From positions 1 through 35,018 of the IMG/VR virus record IMGVR_UViG_3300010885_034847: a stretch of 35,018 nt of DNA, one strand, 5' to 3'. The stretch is from a virus. Shown piece by piece: positions 5,388 through 35,018 of this stretch; position 1 is the first letter of the stretch, and the number at the start of each line of letters is the position of its first letter. The position numbers and the translations under genes are program-made. The notes below the pieces were generated by a model that had not been told where the DNA came from, made no database searches, and worked only from the letters and a program-made list of their open reading frames with translations.

Positions 5388-5436
5388 TGGCTACTTGGCT
5401 ACGTCCAGTTGGAATTGCAGTTTTGCACAGCCACCT

Positions 5437-5451
5437 ATCACAGGCTGTTAT
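5437..5451. promoter_or_regulatory. Operator O2
   Basis: ATCACAGGCTGTTAT is an imperfect palindrome matching O1 and O3 in its ATCAC half. It overlaps a possible second promoter, TTGCAC at 5423 and TGTTAT at 5446 with a 17-bp spacer. Its centre is 30 bp from that of O3, about three helical turns, which allows cooperative binding on one DNA face. Confidence 0.55.
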
Positions 5452-5459
5452 TTTTTTCG

Positions 5460-5488
5460 TTGACGTATCACAGAATGTGATTTATTCT
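5460..5488 (+). promoter_or_regulatory. Rightward early promoter with operator O3
   Basis: TTGACG (5460-5465) and TATTCT (5483-5488) are spaced by 17 bp, a good sigma70 promoter. The spacer contains the perfect palindrome ATCACAGAATGTGAT (5467-5481), so repressor binding would block RNA polymerase. It drives the recombination and integration operon from 5642. Confidence 0.75.
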
Positions 5489-5540
5489 CCCATGCATCAG
5501 ATCCAACGCACCTAAGCACCACGCGGCGGACCTGAGACAC

Positions 5541-5610
5541 GGACAAGGGGAGGGATTGCCCTTGTCCAGCATGGGAGTGGGCCCGGTCGCGGGGTCTCGG
5601 GCTCACTCCC
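5541..5610 (+). promoter_or_regulatory. Two tandem hairpins in the rightward operon leader
   Basis: Hairpin 1 pairs 5541-5549 with 5559-5567 (9 bp, 9-nt loop). Hairpin 2 pairs 5573-5585 with 5598-5610 (13 bp including one G-U, 12-nt loop). They lie about 45 nt downstream of the expected transcription start and 32 nt before the first gene. Neither has a T-run. They could be an antitermination (put-like or nut-like) element, an attenuator or an RNA-stabilising structure. The stretch 5328-5641 holds no gene, only these regulatory elements. Confidence 0.65.
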
Positions 5611-5641
5611 CCACACCACTAGGTCAATGGGAGGCCGGGAT

Positions 5642-5911
5642 ATGTTGAGGACCACAATTCATCTAAGCGACCGGAAAGGACACGTGCTCGTGCATGACCT
5701 CGACGTCGATCTTGAGATTGACGTCCACCAGTCGTGGGCAGAACTGATCAGCGTCGAAATTGATGGCGTAAAGATCCAGCCGACCGTTTATGGCCAACCG
5801 CTTTCCGACCCTTTGCATGACGTGATCTGGCGCCGTTGCAGCGCTGACTTAGAGGTCGGCCGGTTTCAGGATTACATCGACGCCAACCGTCCCGTGCGGA
5901 GGGCGTCATGA
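5642..5911 (+). CDS. Hypothetical protein (89 residues), first of rightward operon
   Basis: The start at 5642 is preferred because GGGAGG lies 7-8 nt upstream; the ATG at 5627 would contain that site. The protein is acidic and mixed alpha/beta in pattern, with no recognised domain. Its stop overlaps the next start (ATGA at 5908-5911). It is expressed from the operator-controlled promoter at 5460, so it is likely an early gene. Confidence 0.65.
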   Translation: MLRTTIHLSDRKGHVLVHDLDVDLEIDVHQSWAELISVEIDGVKIQPTVYGQPLSDPLHDVIWRRCSADLEVGRFQDYIDANRPVRRAS

Positions 5912-8535: not shown

Positions 8536-8860
8536 CCTTCGGCTGCTGACATTAGAGGAAGCCGCCGCAAAACTGCGGAAAAGCCCTCGGACCCTCAAGC
8601 GTCGGCCTATCCCCTATATTCGCGAGGGCGGCCGGCGCATGTATCTTGAAGCGGACATCGACAACTATCTTGCGGAGTGCCGCGTATGTCCATCTTCAAG
8701 CGTGACCGCTCGCCGTTCTGGCAATGTGAAGTCGAAGTCGGAGGGCGTCGGTTTGCTCGAAGCACTGGCGAGATCGACAAGCGTAAGGCCCGCGAGTGGG
8801 AACGCAAGTTCCGGGCGGAGCTTGAAGCGCAAGTTGGGAAGCCTCAACGAAAGGAACTGA
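8528..8860 (+). CDS. Excisionase-like DNA-binding protein
   Basis: This is a 110-residue ORF. Residues about 6-52 form a winged-helix/MerR-type HTH_17 domain (LTLEEAAAKLRKSPRTLKRR, then a wing and YLEADIDNYLAE). This is the usual excisionase or AlpA form. It lies immediately upstream of the integrase and overlaps its gene by 175 nt. The residues after about 55 are Ser/Arg-rich and are encoded entirely in the overlap. It probably directs excision with Int, or controls int expression. Confidence 0.7.
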   Translation: MNSLRLLTLEEAAAKLRKSPRTLKRRPIPYIREGGRRMYLEADIDNYLAECRVCPSSSVTARRSGNVKSKSEGVGLLEALARSTSVRPASGNASSGRSLKRKLGSLNERN

Positions 8861-9720
8861 CCCTTGACCAAGCGTGTGCGCGATGGTGGCTTGAGCACGG
8901 CCAAAAGCTCGAAAGCGCCAAAGGCGAAGCTCGAAACCTCAAGCGAATTGTTGGATCGCTTGGAACAACAATTAATCTCAGCGATGTCACGAACGAGAAT
9001 GTTGCGTTGGTCGTTGACGGTATTGAACGAGAAGGGAATGGCCCGGCATCTGTTAACCGATGCCTTGCAACATTCCGGCGAGTGCTTAGGCGCGCTGGCC
9101 GCGTGTGGGGCCTTCATGTCAACCAAATCAATTGGCCGGACCATTTCAGGAAAGAGCCCAAAGGCCGCACGCGCTGGCTCACGGCGGCAGAAGTCGAACG
9201 GCTCTTGGCAGAGTGTCCCGAGCCGATCCGCGTTGCCGTCGTCTGGTCGATCCTCACGGGGTGCCGCAAGTCGGAAACGTGGCGCATCAAATGGGCCGAC
9301 GTCGATTTTGACCGGGGCCAAGTCAAAATCACCAAAGGCAAAACGGGCGCGCGGGTCGTCTGGCTAACGGACGAAACACGCGCGTTGCTGTTGACCTTGC
9401 GGCCGGAAACGCCCAATCCGGCCGCATCTGTTTTTGATGGCACGAACCACCGCAAGTTATTTGAGGCGGCTGTTGAGCGTGCCGGGCTTGAGGATTTCAC
9501 ATGGCACGATATGCGGCATACGTGCGCGAGTTGGCTGCGTCAGAAGGGGGCGCCGCTTGAGATCGTGGCTCGCGTGCTGGGACACGCCAGCATCAAGACC
9601 ACCGAGCGTTACGCCCACGTAGCAGACGAGGAAGTGACACAGGCCCTAGGCAAGCTGCCGAGCTTGAGCGTTCAACCAGAAGCGGGCAACGTGGTGCCGC
9701 TGAGGCGGAGGAAGAAATGA
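8686..9720 (+). CDS. int: Tyrosine recombinase (phage integrase)
   Basis: From ATG 8686 (GGAG 8 nt upstream; GTG at 8677 possible) this encodes 344 residues. An N-terminal arm-binding-like region (1-55) and a SAM-like core-binding domain (about 58-150) precede the catalytic domain. All catalytic residues are present: R194 in TGCRKSE, K219, H274 and R277 in HDMRH, H300 in LGHAS, and nucleophile Y309 in TERYAHV. It catalyses site-specific integration and excision. The candidate attP lies 392 bp past its stop. Full length for a phage integrase. Confidence 0.95.
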   Translation: MSIFKRDRSPFWQCEVEVGGRRFARSTGEIDKRKAREWERKFRAELEAQVGKPQRKELTLDQACARWWLEHGQKLESAKGEARNLKRIVGSLGTTINLSDVTNENVALVVDGIEREGNGPASVNRCLATFRRVLRRAGRVWGLHVNQINWPDHFRKEPKGRTRWLTAAEVERLLAECPEPIRVAVVWSILTGCRKSETWRIKWADVDFDRGQVKITKGKTGARVVWLTDETRALLLTLRPETPNPAASVFDGTNHRKLFEAAVERAGLEDFTWHDMRHTCASWLRQKGAPLEIVARVLGHASIKTTERYAHVADEEVTQALGKLPSLSVQPEAGNVVPLRRRKK

Positions 9721-10389: not shown

Positions 10390-10410
10390 AGATAGGCACT
10401 TCTCCTATCT
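10390..10410. other. 7-bp inverted repeat at the dpdA 3' end
   Basis: AGATAGG (10390-10396) and CCTATCT (10404-10410) form a hairpin with a 7-nt loop overlapping the dpdA stop codon. No T-run follows on either strand, so it is not a standard terminator. It could stabilise the 3' end of the transcript or be an att-region protein site. Confidence 0.4.
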
Positions 10411-11088
10411 CTGAAACATATCCGGCACGACTTCGCGCTTGCTGTCGCCCCGTCGCCGCTTCTGGCTGTTGACCGCTTTTGCCATGCAATGGGTGCAGCC
10501 GGTCCTTACTCCGTAGTTCTGCGCCACGTTCGTGCTGTCGGCCGACCCGAATGGATAATTGCCGATTTGACCAAGCATCCGCAGACCGTGCAGCCAAGGC
10601 AAGCGAGGGGCACGCTTGTAAAGGTGCTCAAACGCCTGATCCATCCGGCGTAGCCATGTCTCGCTGCCTATCTCCCAATACTCGCCGGCAGACCCTAGGC
10701 ACACAGCGGGCCATTCGTCGGCTAACTCGGAAAGATAATCTAGCGGCTTGTCCAAGTGCCATACGGGCCACGAGAGGTCGCGCGAGAACGGCCAGCGATC
10801 CGTCATCATGCGTTGATCGTCAACACTTCCGCCGATCCGGTCCAGCACTACAGCTCGGTGCGGATGATACAAGCGCGGCTCAAGCCAAGCGTACAGCGCC
10901 GCCTCGTCTAGTACCTTGCCTTTGGTGAAGGCCGTAAACGCGCCATTATCCCACAGCACCGATTGCCCGAATTGCTCGCAGAAGTCCGCATCGCGCGGCT
11001 CCGCAAACGAAACGCAAAAGCTCTGTCCGGTCATCCGGTAGAGTTGCGCCTTGGGCGTGATCGGCGTGCCGTGGTAACAGATCGTCAA
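10405..11088 (-). CDS. dpdA: DpdA-type DNA 7-deazaguanine transglycosylase
   Basis: This is a 227-residue protein related to tRNA-guanine transglycosylases in the compact phage DpdA form. Visible blocks are: an N-terminal HGTP (about 6-9); DNGAFTAF (about 47-54); an acidic VVLDRIGGSVDDQ block (about 80-92) likely holding a catalytic Asp; PVWHLDKP (about 107-114); a HGLRML block (166-171) followed by SADSTNVAQN; and a C-terminal CTHC (197-200). The enzyme would exchange guanine in DNA for preQ0 or a derivative. The TTG start at 11088 overlaps the queD stop; a TTG at 11100 is also possible. Family named from motifs and from its queD neighbour. Confidence 0.8.
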   Translation of the reverse strand: MTICYHGTPITPKAQLYRMTGQSFCVSFAEPRDADFCEQFGQSVLWDNGAFTAFTKGKVLDEAALYAWLEPRLYHPHRAVVLDRIGGSVDDQRMMTDRWPFSRDLSWPVWHLDKPLDYLSELADEWPAVCLGSAGEYWEIGSETWLRRMDQAFEHLYKRAPRLPWLHGLRMLGQIGNYPFGSADSTNVAQNYGVRTGCTHCMAKAVNSQKRRRGDSKREVVPDMFQR

Positions 11089-11432
11089 GCTTCCACCCAA
11101 TAGCGCGGCGTTTCGTAAATGCGGACGGTCGGTGCATAACCTGGCAACGCGGCTTCAATCTGCCGCTTTAACCACATCACAAGCACTTCGGACGTTGGGT
11201 TTTCCAGCCCTTCGATCTCATTCAAAAACCGATGGTCCAACCGATCCACCAGCGGCTGCACCGCCGCGTCGAGTTCGGCGTAGTCGATCACAAAGCCGCG
11301 CTCATCAATGTCGCCGGAGATCGAAACCTCAAGCTTGTAATTGTGCCCGTGCAGCCGCTTACACTTGTGCCCATCGGGCAAGCGCAAAAGCTGGTGAGCT
11401 GCTTCAAATCCGTATGTTGCTGCAATCTTCAA
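11085..11432 (-). CDS. queD: QueD, 6-carboxy-tetrahydropterin synthase
   Basis: This is a 115-residue protein of the PTPS/QueD fold with all key residues: zinc ligands H13, H28 and H30 (the latter two in LHGHNY), catalytic C24 in HKCKRLHGH, D66-H67 in LDHRFLN, and E107 in IYETP. It converts dihydroneopterin triphosphate to 6-carboxy-tetrahydropterin, the first committed step to preQ0. Cys at the HKC position favours QueD over a eukaryote-type PTPS. It starts with TTG at 11432 with GGGAGG 6 nt upstream, and runs directly into dpdA. The pathway partners QueE and QueC are not in the window. Confidence 0.92.
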   Translation of the reverse strand: MKIAATYGFEAAHQLLRLPDGHKCKRLHGHNYKLEVSISGDIDERGFVIDYAELDAAVQPLVDRLDHRFLNEIEGLENPTSEVLVMWLKRQIEAALPGYAPTVRIYETPRYWVEA

Positions 11433-11443
11433 ATGGGGCCTCC

Positions 11444-11647
11444 CTAACTTTTGGTCGCCTCGACCAGCTTGCTGTATATCTCACTCCAATGAGCCGACGT
11501 CTTGTCGCGATCAGACTCAACCATCAACGAACTTTTGTCAGCAAACACGCAATATATGCCATCCTCGTCGATCACAATGGTGGCACCGTCTCGCCAACGC
11601 AATTCGATGCCGGCTTCCGATACGATCGTCGTGTCGGGCTTTCTCAC
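11444..11647 (-). CDS. Hypothetical protein (67 residues)
   Basis: This is a 67-residue protein with a GTG start at 11647 and a beta-strand-like pattern in its first 40 residues, then a helical end. It lies 11 nt upstream of queD and is probably co-transcribed with it. No recognised family. A role in the DNA modification module is possible only by association. Confidence 0.55.
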   Translation of the reverse strand: MRKPDTTIVSEAGIELRWRDGATIVIDEDGIYCVFADKSSLMVESDRDKTSAHWSEIYSKLVEATKS

Positions 11648-11658
11648 GGCAGTGATCC

Positions 11659-11826
11659 CTAATCGTTCTCAATGAACCAATACACGTCGGCTTGCTCGTC
11701 TAACTCAAAGCAATGCTTAAACCGTTCAAAGAATGCCCGTAGGTGATCGTGCTTCATCAACTGGTGCTTAGACAGTCCGCGACGGTTGCCTCGCGTCACC
11801 CATTGAATTACGACGGTCTGCGCCAC
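11659..11826 (-). CDS. Hypothetical protein (55 residues)
   Basis: This 55-codon ORF has a GTG start at 11826 preceded by a strong AAGGAGG site 6 nt upstream. It is rich in His, Phe and Arg with an acidic end. It lies 11 nt from the next ORF in the same direction. No family recognised. The strong ribosome-binding site and tight packing make it a likely real gene. Confidence 0.6.
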   Translation of the reverse strand: MAQTVVIQWVTRGNRRGLSKHQLMKHDHLRAFFERFKHCFELDEQADVYWFIEND

Positions 11827-33392: not shown

Positions 33393-34966
33393 CACATGCC
33401 CAACCAATCACCCTCAGACGTTGCCACTGAAAAGCTGCTCCAATCCTGAACTTTGGCGGTGCTCATATCGATGGCAAACGTCAGTGCTGCCGCGTCTCCC
33501 AAGTCAGGGGAGAACGACAGCCGCTCTTTCACATGGTCTTTAGGTTCCAACAGCAATTGGCCGCTGGAGTTGAAGCGGGTAGCGCCGGCTCCCCGAATGA
33601 TCGAGCAAACGTCGCCCTGGAAATCATCGCTGTCCGGCACCTGAACACCTGCGGGGTCGTCAAACCACTGCCGCATCAAATCCCACATCTCTGCGCGGCG
33701 GTTGGCATAGGCTTTGGTTTCGTAAGCCTTGGCCCCAAAATTCACCCCTTCGATCACGTCGCCCATGATCTCGCGCAAACGGTCGTAAAGACCGGCGCCG
33801 AGACCCGTAGTGTCGATCACCACCTTGGCGGCGTTGATCTGTTTGGCGATGCGCTGGACCTCGCCAGCGACAGCCATCAGGTCGTTGTGATCAATCCTCT
33901 TACAGATGTTGCCACCCAATCGGCGGCCCTGGCGGTCGATGAGCCCCGTTTTATCGCCTCCTCCGCGTGCAGGATCAACACCGAGAATGACGGGTCCATA
34001 TCCTTGAACAGTGCGGTTCTTTCGTGCGGCGATAACTGCGGCAGAGCTGATAAAAGCGTCCGCACCTGACGTTTGAAAAGCTTCATCTGCTGTTGCTGGA
34101 TACTCTTGTCTAAACATCCAGCAGGGTTCATCAGGATTGCCTCCGGCTAGAACGGCCATCTCGCGGTTTTTGCGCCATGCCCAATAGGTTTGATCGCGGG
34201 TCAGGCTGAAATGGCGCTCGTACTGTTCCCAGGCGTCAGGGATCACCCAATCGTCGTCTGGCGCGCGGGTGTATTCCTCATGCCAAAACCACGGAATGAA
34301 CACGGCCTCGTAATCGCTGTCACCGCGTTCGGCCGCTTTCCACTCAGCATGGAACACATTGCCGATACCGTTGGCGGTACTCTCGAAGATGACCTCGGTT
34401 CCGGCCTGATCGGCGACGGCTTGGCGAATACCTGCAGCGTGGTTCTGCGCATTAGGCCAGAACGCAACTTCTGAGCCGTGAAACAATTGGATTGTTTGCG
34501 AACGGCCGACTTCAGCACTGCCAGCGGTGCCGACCTTGTAACCGCTATCAAGGCCAGAGAAGAACAGCTCTTTGGCGTTGCTCTTGCCAGTATCTGGGCG
34601 CCACATATCAGGGCAGTTGTCATGGAGCCGCTTTGCCATCCCGAATAGGTTGTCGGAGGCTTCGTCCAAGTGCGTGAGGATGAAAGCTCGATAACCGCGC
34701 TTATGGGTAATGCGCCAATAAAACCTGCCGGCGATGTATGTGCTGATACCTACTTGGCGCCCCTTCAGGACTAGAGCGCGGACTTTGCCGAGGCGAGCGC
34801 GCTGCGCTTCTAGTCGCTCGTGCAGGTAAGCTTGGCTACGATTGAGCCTGAATGGTGTAACGCTGCCAGACTTGGCGCGTATCTTAAGACAGGCACGGGC
34901 GTAGTCATCGAAGTCGCGAGCAAGACGAATACGCAGTTCGCGTTCGCGATCACTGAGGGAAGCCAT
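33392..34966 (-). CDS. terL: Terminase large subunit
   Basis: From ATG 34966 this encodes 524 residues (a GTG at 34972 is also possible). The ATPase part has a Walker A-like LVLKGRQVGIS (about 65-75) and a VIFESTANG block (about 191-199) in the Walker B/coupling region. The RNase H-like nuclease has three acidic clusters: VDPARGGGDKT (about 330), VVIDTTGLG (about 382) and DLGDAAAL (about 488). It pumps DNA into the procapsid and cuts it headful. It follows terS across the circular junction. Confidence 0.93.
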   Translation of the reverse strand: MASLSDRERELRIRLARDFDDYARACLKIRAKSGSVTPFRLNRSQAYLHERLEAQRARLGKVRALVLKGRQVGISTYIAGRFYWRITHKRGYRAFILTHLDEASDNLFGMAKRLHDNCPDMWRPDTGKSNAKELFFSGLDSGYKVGTAGSAEVGRSQTIQLFHGSEVAFWPNAQNHAAGIRQAVADQAGTEVIFESTANGIGNVFHAEWKAAERGDSDYEAVFIPWFWHEEYTRAPDDDWVIPDAWEQYERHFSLTRDQTYWAWRKNREMAVLAGGNPDEPCWMFRQEYPATADEAFQTSGADAFISSAAVIAARKNRTVQGYGPVILGVDPARGGGDKTGLIDRQGRRLGGNICKRIDHNDLMAVAGEVQRIAKQINAAKVVIDTTGLGAGLYDRLREIMGDVIEGVNFGAKAYETKAYANRRAEMWDLMRQWFDDPAGVQVPDSDDFQGDVCSIIRGAGATRFNSSGQLLLEPKDHVKERLSFSPDLGDAAALTFAIDMSTAKVQDWSSFSVATSEGDWLGM

Positions 34967-35018
34967 GGCCACCTTCGCTATGGGCTAAGGCCGCTTCGAC
35001 CTCGCCTAGTGCTTCCTC
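34896..35018. repeat. Terminal direct repeat, right copy
   Basis: This is the exact copy of bases 1-123. It contains the 5' end of the terminase large subunit gene and the 3' end of the small subunit gene. Headful-packaging (P22-type) phages have circularly permuted DNA, which assembles this way; an excised circular form would look the same. Confidence 0.95.
34950..35018 (-). CDS. Terminase small subunit, duplicated 3' end (partial)
   Basis: This is the redundant C-terminal part of the small terminase gene, lying in the right copy of the terminal repeat. The full gene is at 55-384. The small subunit stop lies about 16 nt inside the start of the large subunit gene, so the two are probably translationally coupled once the circle is closed. 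Confidence 0.85.
   Translation of the reverse strand, partial: EEALGEVEAALAHSEGGHGFPQ

Follow-up and report, generated by a model that had tools for sequence, protein, structure and literature searches.

Introduction

The locus described here raises the question of what a phage does with a compact transglycosylase of the DpdA type when queD is the one gene of the precursor pathway that accompanies it. The first-pass annotation of the window, by which we mean the whole 35,018-nt stretch of phage DNA that was analysed, had proposed that the two genes serve to place a 7-deazaguanine base in the DNA of the phage. Here, we examined the completeness of the genome, the identity of both proteins, the fold and probable substrate of the transglycosylase, and the company that its relatives keep in viral and bacterial genomes.

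A complete integrase-bearing phage genome with an accessory cassette

The window is bounded by a terminal direct repeat of 123 bp, with identical copies at positions 1-123 and 34896-35018, and contigs from two other assemblies (L250 and L251) cross the repeat junction at 99.99-100% identity. Because independent contigs bridge this junction, the 35-kb genome can be considered complete. Profile searches, in which the QueC profile was seeded on 9g QueC, found no QueC, QueE or FolE in it and, the genome being complete, these three proteins are therefore truly absent from the phage. The earlier view that QueD is the sole pathway gene besides DpdA, with the host needed for QueE, QueC and FolE, is thus supported. 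The phage had also been taken for a temperate P22-like podophage, in agreement with the genes that we found. Indeed, a tyrosine integrase (8677-9720, plus strand; PF00589 at 3.4e-28, phrog_1) converges on the cassette, and a run of late genes on the minus strand (13339-34972) encodes endolysin, tail fibre, head closure, coat, scaffold, portal and large terminase, including a P22-like head module; Erf is also encoded.

The cassette is located at the downstream end of the late-gene run, on the same strand, past the endolysin and facing the integrase. Just upstream of queD, and on the same minus strand, two small ORFs with no family match (11444-11647, 67 aa, and 11659-11826, 55 aa) are perhaps co-transcribed with the cassette. 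A promoter scan around the cassette gave nothing better than shuffled sequences, and no tRNA gene was found in the 35,018-nt genome. A search for near DNA relatives of phage positions 1-25000 among 50,697 phage records returned no match. Phages whose terminase is about 70-72% identical are devoid of dpdA, and the closest relatives of this dpdA (L011 and L152) come from phages that lack this portal; the cassette is thus accessory and mobile between phage types.

The queD product has the hallmarks of a genuine QueD

The queD gene (11085-11432, minus strand) encodes a protein of 115 aa from a TTG start codon that is preceded by the Shine-Dalgarno sequence GGGAGG. The protein scores above the curated cut-offs of both Pfam PF01242 (103.7 bits) and the NCBIfam equivalog TIGR03367 queuosine_QueD (97.6 bits for a cut-off of 89.25). 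Members of the QueD family possess a catalytic cysteine in a CxxxHGH motif, three zinc-binding histidines, an Asp-His pair and a glutamate; all of them are kept here (C24 in CxxxHGH, H13/H28/H30, D66-H67 and E107), as had been read at first pass. By its match to the equivalog model and its intact residues, the product is assigned as a QueD (6-carboxy-5,6,7,8-tetrahydropterin synthase).

The neighbouring gene encodes a compact member of the DpdA family

Head to tail with queD and on the same strand lies the dpdA-like gene (10405-11088, minus strand), whose TTG start codon at 11088 shares bases with the stop codon of queD in the sequence TTGA. The overlap and the length of 227 aa are as first described, and a longer frame of 231 aa is also open from 11100. 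The four blocks DNGAFTAF, VVLDRIGG, HGLRML and ADSTN, which had suggested a transglycosylase, are all present in the protein. It falls into phrog_887 (E 8.3e-38), a family that is common to this protein, 9g DpdA (2e-98) and MED16 DpdA. While its identity to 9g DpdA is 26%, hhalign of a profile of 113 relatives against 9g DpdA gave an E-value of 5.8e-10 over 148 columns, pairing DNGAF with DSGAF, LDRIG with LDGIG, WHLDKPLDYL with FHAGEPFEYL, HGLRM with HGFGI and ADST with CDSS (phage and 9g, respectively). Moreover, an HMM of the compact family scores 44.9 bits on 9g DpdA.

Residues D47, D83, H111, G132, H167 and R170 are identical in all 113 relatives, and D184 is kept in 112 of them, the exception being a shortened copy. 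From the order of the motifs, we infer catalytic roles for the conserved Asp and His residues. H167 aligns with H196 of 9g DpdA. The DpdA2 group, which is without a histidine equivalent to 9g H196 (PMC6884629), was considered as well; membership of this Vibrio phage nt-1 type was ruled out, H167 being invariant in the 113 relatives. Compared with its relative L002, the dpdA-like gene has a dN lower than dS (0.29 vs 1.43). Altogether, the phrog_887 match, the phage homologs, the invariant residues and dN below dS argue that this gene is not a chance ORF.

More general searches were negative. At E-values up to 1, no Pfam family, hence no TGT PF01702, matched the 227-aa protein, and there was no NCBIfam match. 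PADLOC recognised neither cassette protein, and its DpdA model gave nothing at E-values up to 1, although 9g DpdA itself also reaches only E 0.02 with this model. PDB sequences compared with the transglycosylase by phmmer, and with the profile of 113 relatives, yielded nothing meaningful. Of the DpdA and TGT families against which an HMM search had been suggested, kinship was thus recovered with DpdA, through phrog_887 and the 9g hhalign, and not with the Pfam TGT.

The fold is that of a transglycosylase and the probable substrate is DNA

The AlphaFold2 model of the 227-aa protein has a pLDDT of 92.1 and a pTM of 0.88. When it was compared with the PDB by VIA-align, the top rows were Cap10, archaeosine TGT and bacterial TGTs, with Z-scores of 13.9-15.6 over 201-217 residues, the best match being Cap10 of type IV CBASS (9ntn_B, Z 15.6). 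A plain Foldseek search of the same model against the PDB returned generic TIM barrels only, with a best E-value of 0.014 that is not significant. In the model, the protein is a short TGT-type TIM barrel, with 227 aa vs about 370 for TGT. The proposal of a compact DpdA-family transglycosylase is therefore upheld by phrog_887, by the hhalign to 9g DpdA and by the fold, the predicted structure having matched TGT-family chains best in VIA-align. The protein belongs to the DpdA sequence family and to the TGT superfamily.

Cap10 of type IV CBASS is tied to the 7-deazaguanine modification of protein. Since the top structural match modifies protein and the others tRNA, the fold does not discriminate between substrates, and it is the kinship to the DpdA proteins of 9g and MED16 that points to DNA as the substrate of the phage enzyme.

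Relatives of the compact dpdA usually adjoin one supply gene

Relatives of the compact dpdA are found on at least 568 viral contigs, and homologs are present in 104 of 50,697 deposited phage records, including Lederbergvirus BTP1. The impression that a small temperate phage of the P22 type would rarely have such an enzyme is not supported, BTP1 and many lambdoid phages having the same compact enzyme. In Salmonella phage BTP1, the compact DpdA homolog is the gene annotated as queuine tRNA-ribosyltransferase (L010, 22463-23218).

The flanks of dpdA were searched with profiles for QueD, the YhhQ/QPTR importer (PF02592, VUT/DUF165), QueC, QueE and FolE. The close relatives considered are not a random sample, since they are the 80 best out of at least 568. 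Viral loci were clustered at 90%, leaving 56 clusters with both flanks, and a supply gene was counted when it was on the strand of dpdA and no more than 1.5 kb away. An importer was present in 36 clusters, queD in eight, both in none and neither in 12 (Fisher 9e-5; Fisher values are guides only here, as independence is overstated for related clusters). Because of these 12 clusters, and because the gammaproteobacterial dpdA branch is mostly without a supply gene, such genes are not obligatory. The 41 whole records gave a similar distribution, with 29 importer matches, five PTPS-family genes and no record with both. In the reverse search, 18 of 20 viral relatives of the phage QueD lie near a DpdA-profile match, mostly overlapping it (two of these 18 matches are weak, and at one of the two loci the pathway is more nearly complete). 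The same proximity to a DpdA-profile match holds for most relatives of the importer. As a control, 52 loci around relatives of this phage's terminase (591 kb) contained no dpdA, queD or importer. We also looked for a third recurrent neighbour of dpdA; apart from the two supply genes, the recurring families were all generic ones (replication, nuclease and ParB-like).

When the supply genes are mapped on a tree of 113 dpdA proteins, the state of queD switches 15 times, and well supported branches impose at least 10 of these switches; for the importer, the number of switches is also 15. As an example of a swap, L077 (queD-queE-queC) is placed beside L028 (importer). The phage dpdA itself is one of the four members, all of the queD type, of a supported clade. 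This distribution suggests that queD and the importer were exchanged repeatedly in the course of dpdA evolution. The pattern that a compact dpdA usually adjoins one precursor-supply gene, queD or importer, is reported here as new. A survey published in 2019 stated that the YhhQ homologs of phages do not correlate with any group of phages (PMC6884629); it is against this survey that we judge the alternation to be new, an earlier description elsewhere being possible, and our pairing result qualifies its statement for phage YhhQ.

Partial pathways also occur around compact dpdA genes: L071 and L212 have an importer and QueC, L077 has a queD-queE-queC-dpdA arrangement and L114 a queE-queD pair. 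In addition, several PTPS-family partners have another residue or a gap at the catalytic cysteine of CxxxHGH while keeping the zinc histidines (L006, 4711-5007; L011, about 5400-5800; L033, L103, L158-L168 and L170). Since the catalytic cysteine is missing in these relatives, not every PTPS partner need be a QueD, and the cysteine-less proteins are possibly a different pterin enzyme.

Bacterial genomes carrying compact dpdA

In the genome contigs, a scan with the single protein found no dpdA relative, but a scan with the alignment did. The five bacterial contigs with queD beside dpdA all come from QueC-bearing genomes, most of which hold a second PTPS-family gene. Since these genomes have QueC and mostly a second PTPS, a booster role seems to suit the queD of the phage better than that of a replacement. 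Full QueC and QueD are both missing, with TGT present, in three of the eight importer-type genomes (L099, L105 and L115), vs none of 20 other genomes (P 0.017, for few genomes, some of which are MAGs). These three are probable salvage hosts.

A probable minimal cassette for DNA modification

Taken together, we propose that the pair is probably a minimal 7-deazaguanine DNA-modification cassette, in which QueD feeds the compact DpdA and the host supplies the rest. Host FolE would make dihydroneopterin triphosphate for folate, QueD would turn it into 6-carboxytetrahydropterin, and host QueE and QueC would complete preQ0. QueD performs the first committed step, diverting dihydroneopterin triphosphate from folate synthesis, and the phage gene could therefore raise the flux, with host QueE and QueC finishing preQ0. 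In the DNA of the phage itself, the compact DpdA would then put preQ0, or a 7-deazaguanine related to it, in the place of guanine, as its kinship to 9g and MED16 suggests; the resulting nucleoside may be dPreQ0, dADG or another. The alternative pairing leads us to propose that precursor supply, and not the transferase, would limit modification, which would account for the presence of queD, and that other phages would meet the same need with the YhhQ/QPTR importer.

Published measurements are in line with such a limit. In E. coli, plasmid DNA acquires preQ0 through the action of 9g DpdA: about 0.3% of plasmid G was modified with 9g dpdA alone, and far more with gat-queC (PMC6884629). About 30% of G is modified in phages with preQ0 genes, against 0.02% and 0.13% in the dpdA-only phages 7-11 and MED16 (PMC6884629, PMC8306585). 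By analogy, these levels suggest that precursor supply limits the level of modification. By extension from the wider family, the likely benefit of the cassette would be protection against nucleases, although the MED16 relative, with dADG at about 0.13% of G, was not protected from the restriction enzymes tested (PMC8306585).

The same low levels in 7-11 and MED16, and the absence of a restriction effect in the latter (PMC6884629, PMC8306585), could also mean that the cassette is a passenger moron whose effect is small or nil, with trace activity of dpdA and with queD as an independent metabolic gene. The phages with about 70-72% identical terminase that do without dpdA are compatible with this reading, which is nevertheless quite improbable given the translational overlap of the two genes, the recurrence of the queD-dpdA pairing across distant dpdA lineages, the conserved active sites and the dN below dS.

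Two other explanations keep the chemistry and change the substrate. QueD could raise the host's queuosine precursor and the transglycosylase act on tRNA, tuning translation during infection. This would fit the TGT fold (Z about 14 with TGTs of bacteria and archaea) and the name queuine tRNA-ribosyltransferase that PHROGs and GenBank give to the family, and extra preQ0 would also feed the host TGT. We consider it unlikely, as the Pfam TGT profile does not match the protein at E 1, the protein has 227 aa vs about 370, a TGT is already present in 26 of the 28 bacterial genomes examined, and DNA is the substrate of the closest relatives that have been characterised, 9g dpdA failing to complement a tgt mutant (PMC6884629). 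A role like that of Cap10 in type IV CBASS, in which the enzyme would conjugate 7-deazaguanine to protein, perhaps for counter-defence, is highly improbable: the best structural match is indeed Cap10 (9ntn_B, Z 15.6), but this is only about 1 above archaeosine TGT, the 9g-QueC-seeded profile finds no QueC-like (Cap9) gene in the phage genome, the sequence kinship is to 9g DpdA, and PADLOC matches neither cassette protein.

With the DNA-modification cassette as the preferred reading, a broader proposal can be made, on which our own judgement is evenly balanced. Compact transferases may form a plug-in kit with one interchangeable gene, queD in preQ0-making hosts or the QPTR importer (including for non-makers), chosen by the queuosine capacity of the host and swapped often. 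The phage would thereby add the one step that its host lacks or keeps scarce. Such a pattern offers a testable answer to why many phages keep the transferase without the pathway, and questions the 'queuine tRNA-ribosyltransferase' labels in temperate phages such as BTP1.

Comparison with known systems

The cassette shares with 9g (PMC6884629) the family phrog_887, 148 alignable columns, the motif blocks, the conserved histidine and a QueD near DpdA. It differs by its 227 aa, the 9g DpdA having 317, and by having QueD only, whereas 9g encodes the whole FolE-QueD-QueE-Gat-QueC pathway including an amidotransferase domain. Pantoea phage MED16 (PMC8306585) belongs to the same compact subfamily (about 38% identity) and also depends on its host for the precursor, but its dpdA is without a supply gene, and dADG was measured in its virion DNA at about 0.13% of G. 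In Caulobacter phage DMCA (PQ480021), a phage isolate, a PTPS-family gene likewise overlaps a compact dpdA; there, the partner has 98 aa and lacks the QueD cysteine, and the dpdA-like gene bears a 'hypothetical' annotation. Rhizobium phages RHph_N3_2 and RHph_X2_30 and Pseudanabaena phage Pam5 also combine a compact dpdA with one nearby supply gene, which is of the VUT/DUF165 type (YhhQ/QPTR, PF02592) and would serve import and not synthesis. Finally, Lederbergvirus BTP1 is, like this phage, temperate and P22-like and has a compact DpdA homolog (32% identity), but its gene lies in the early region near int with no supply gene adjoining.
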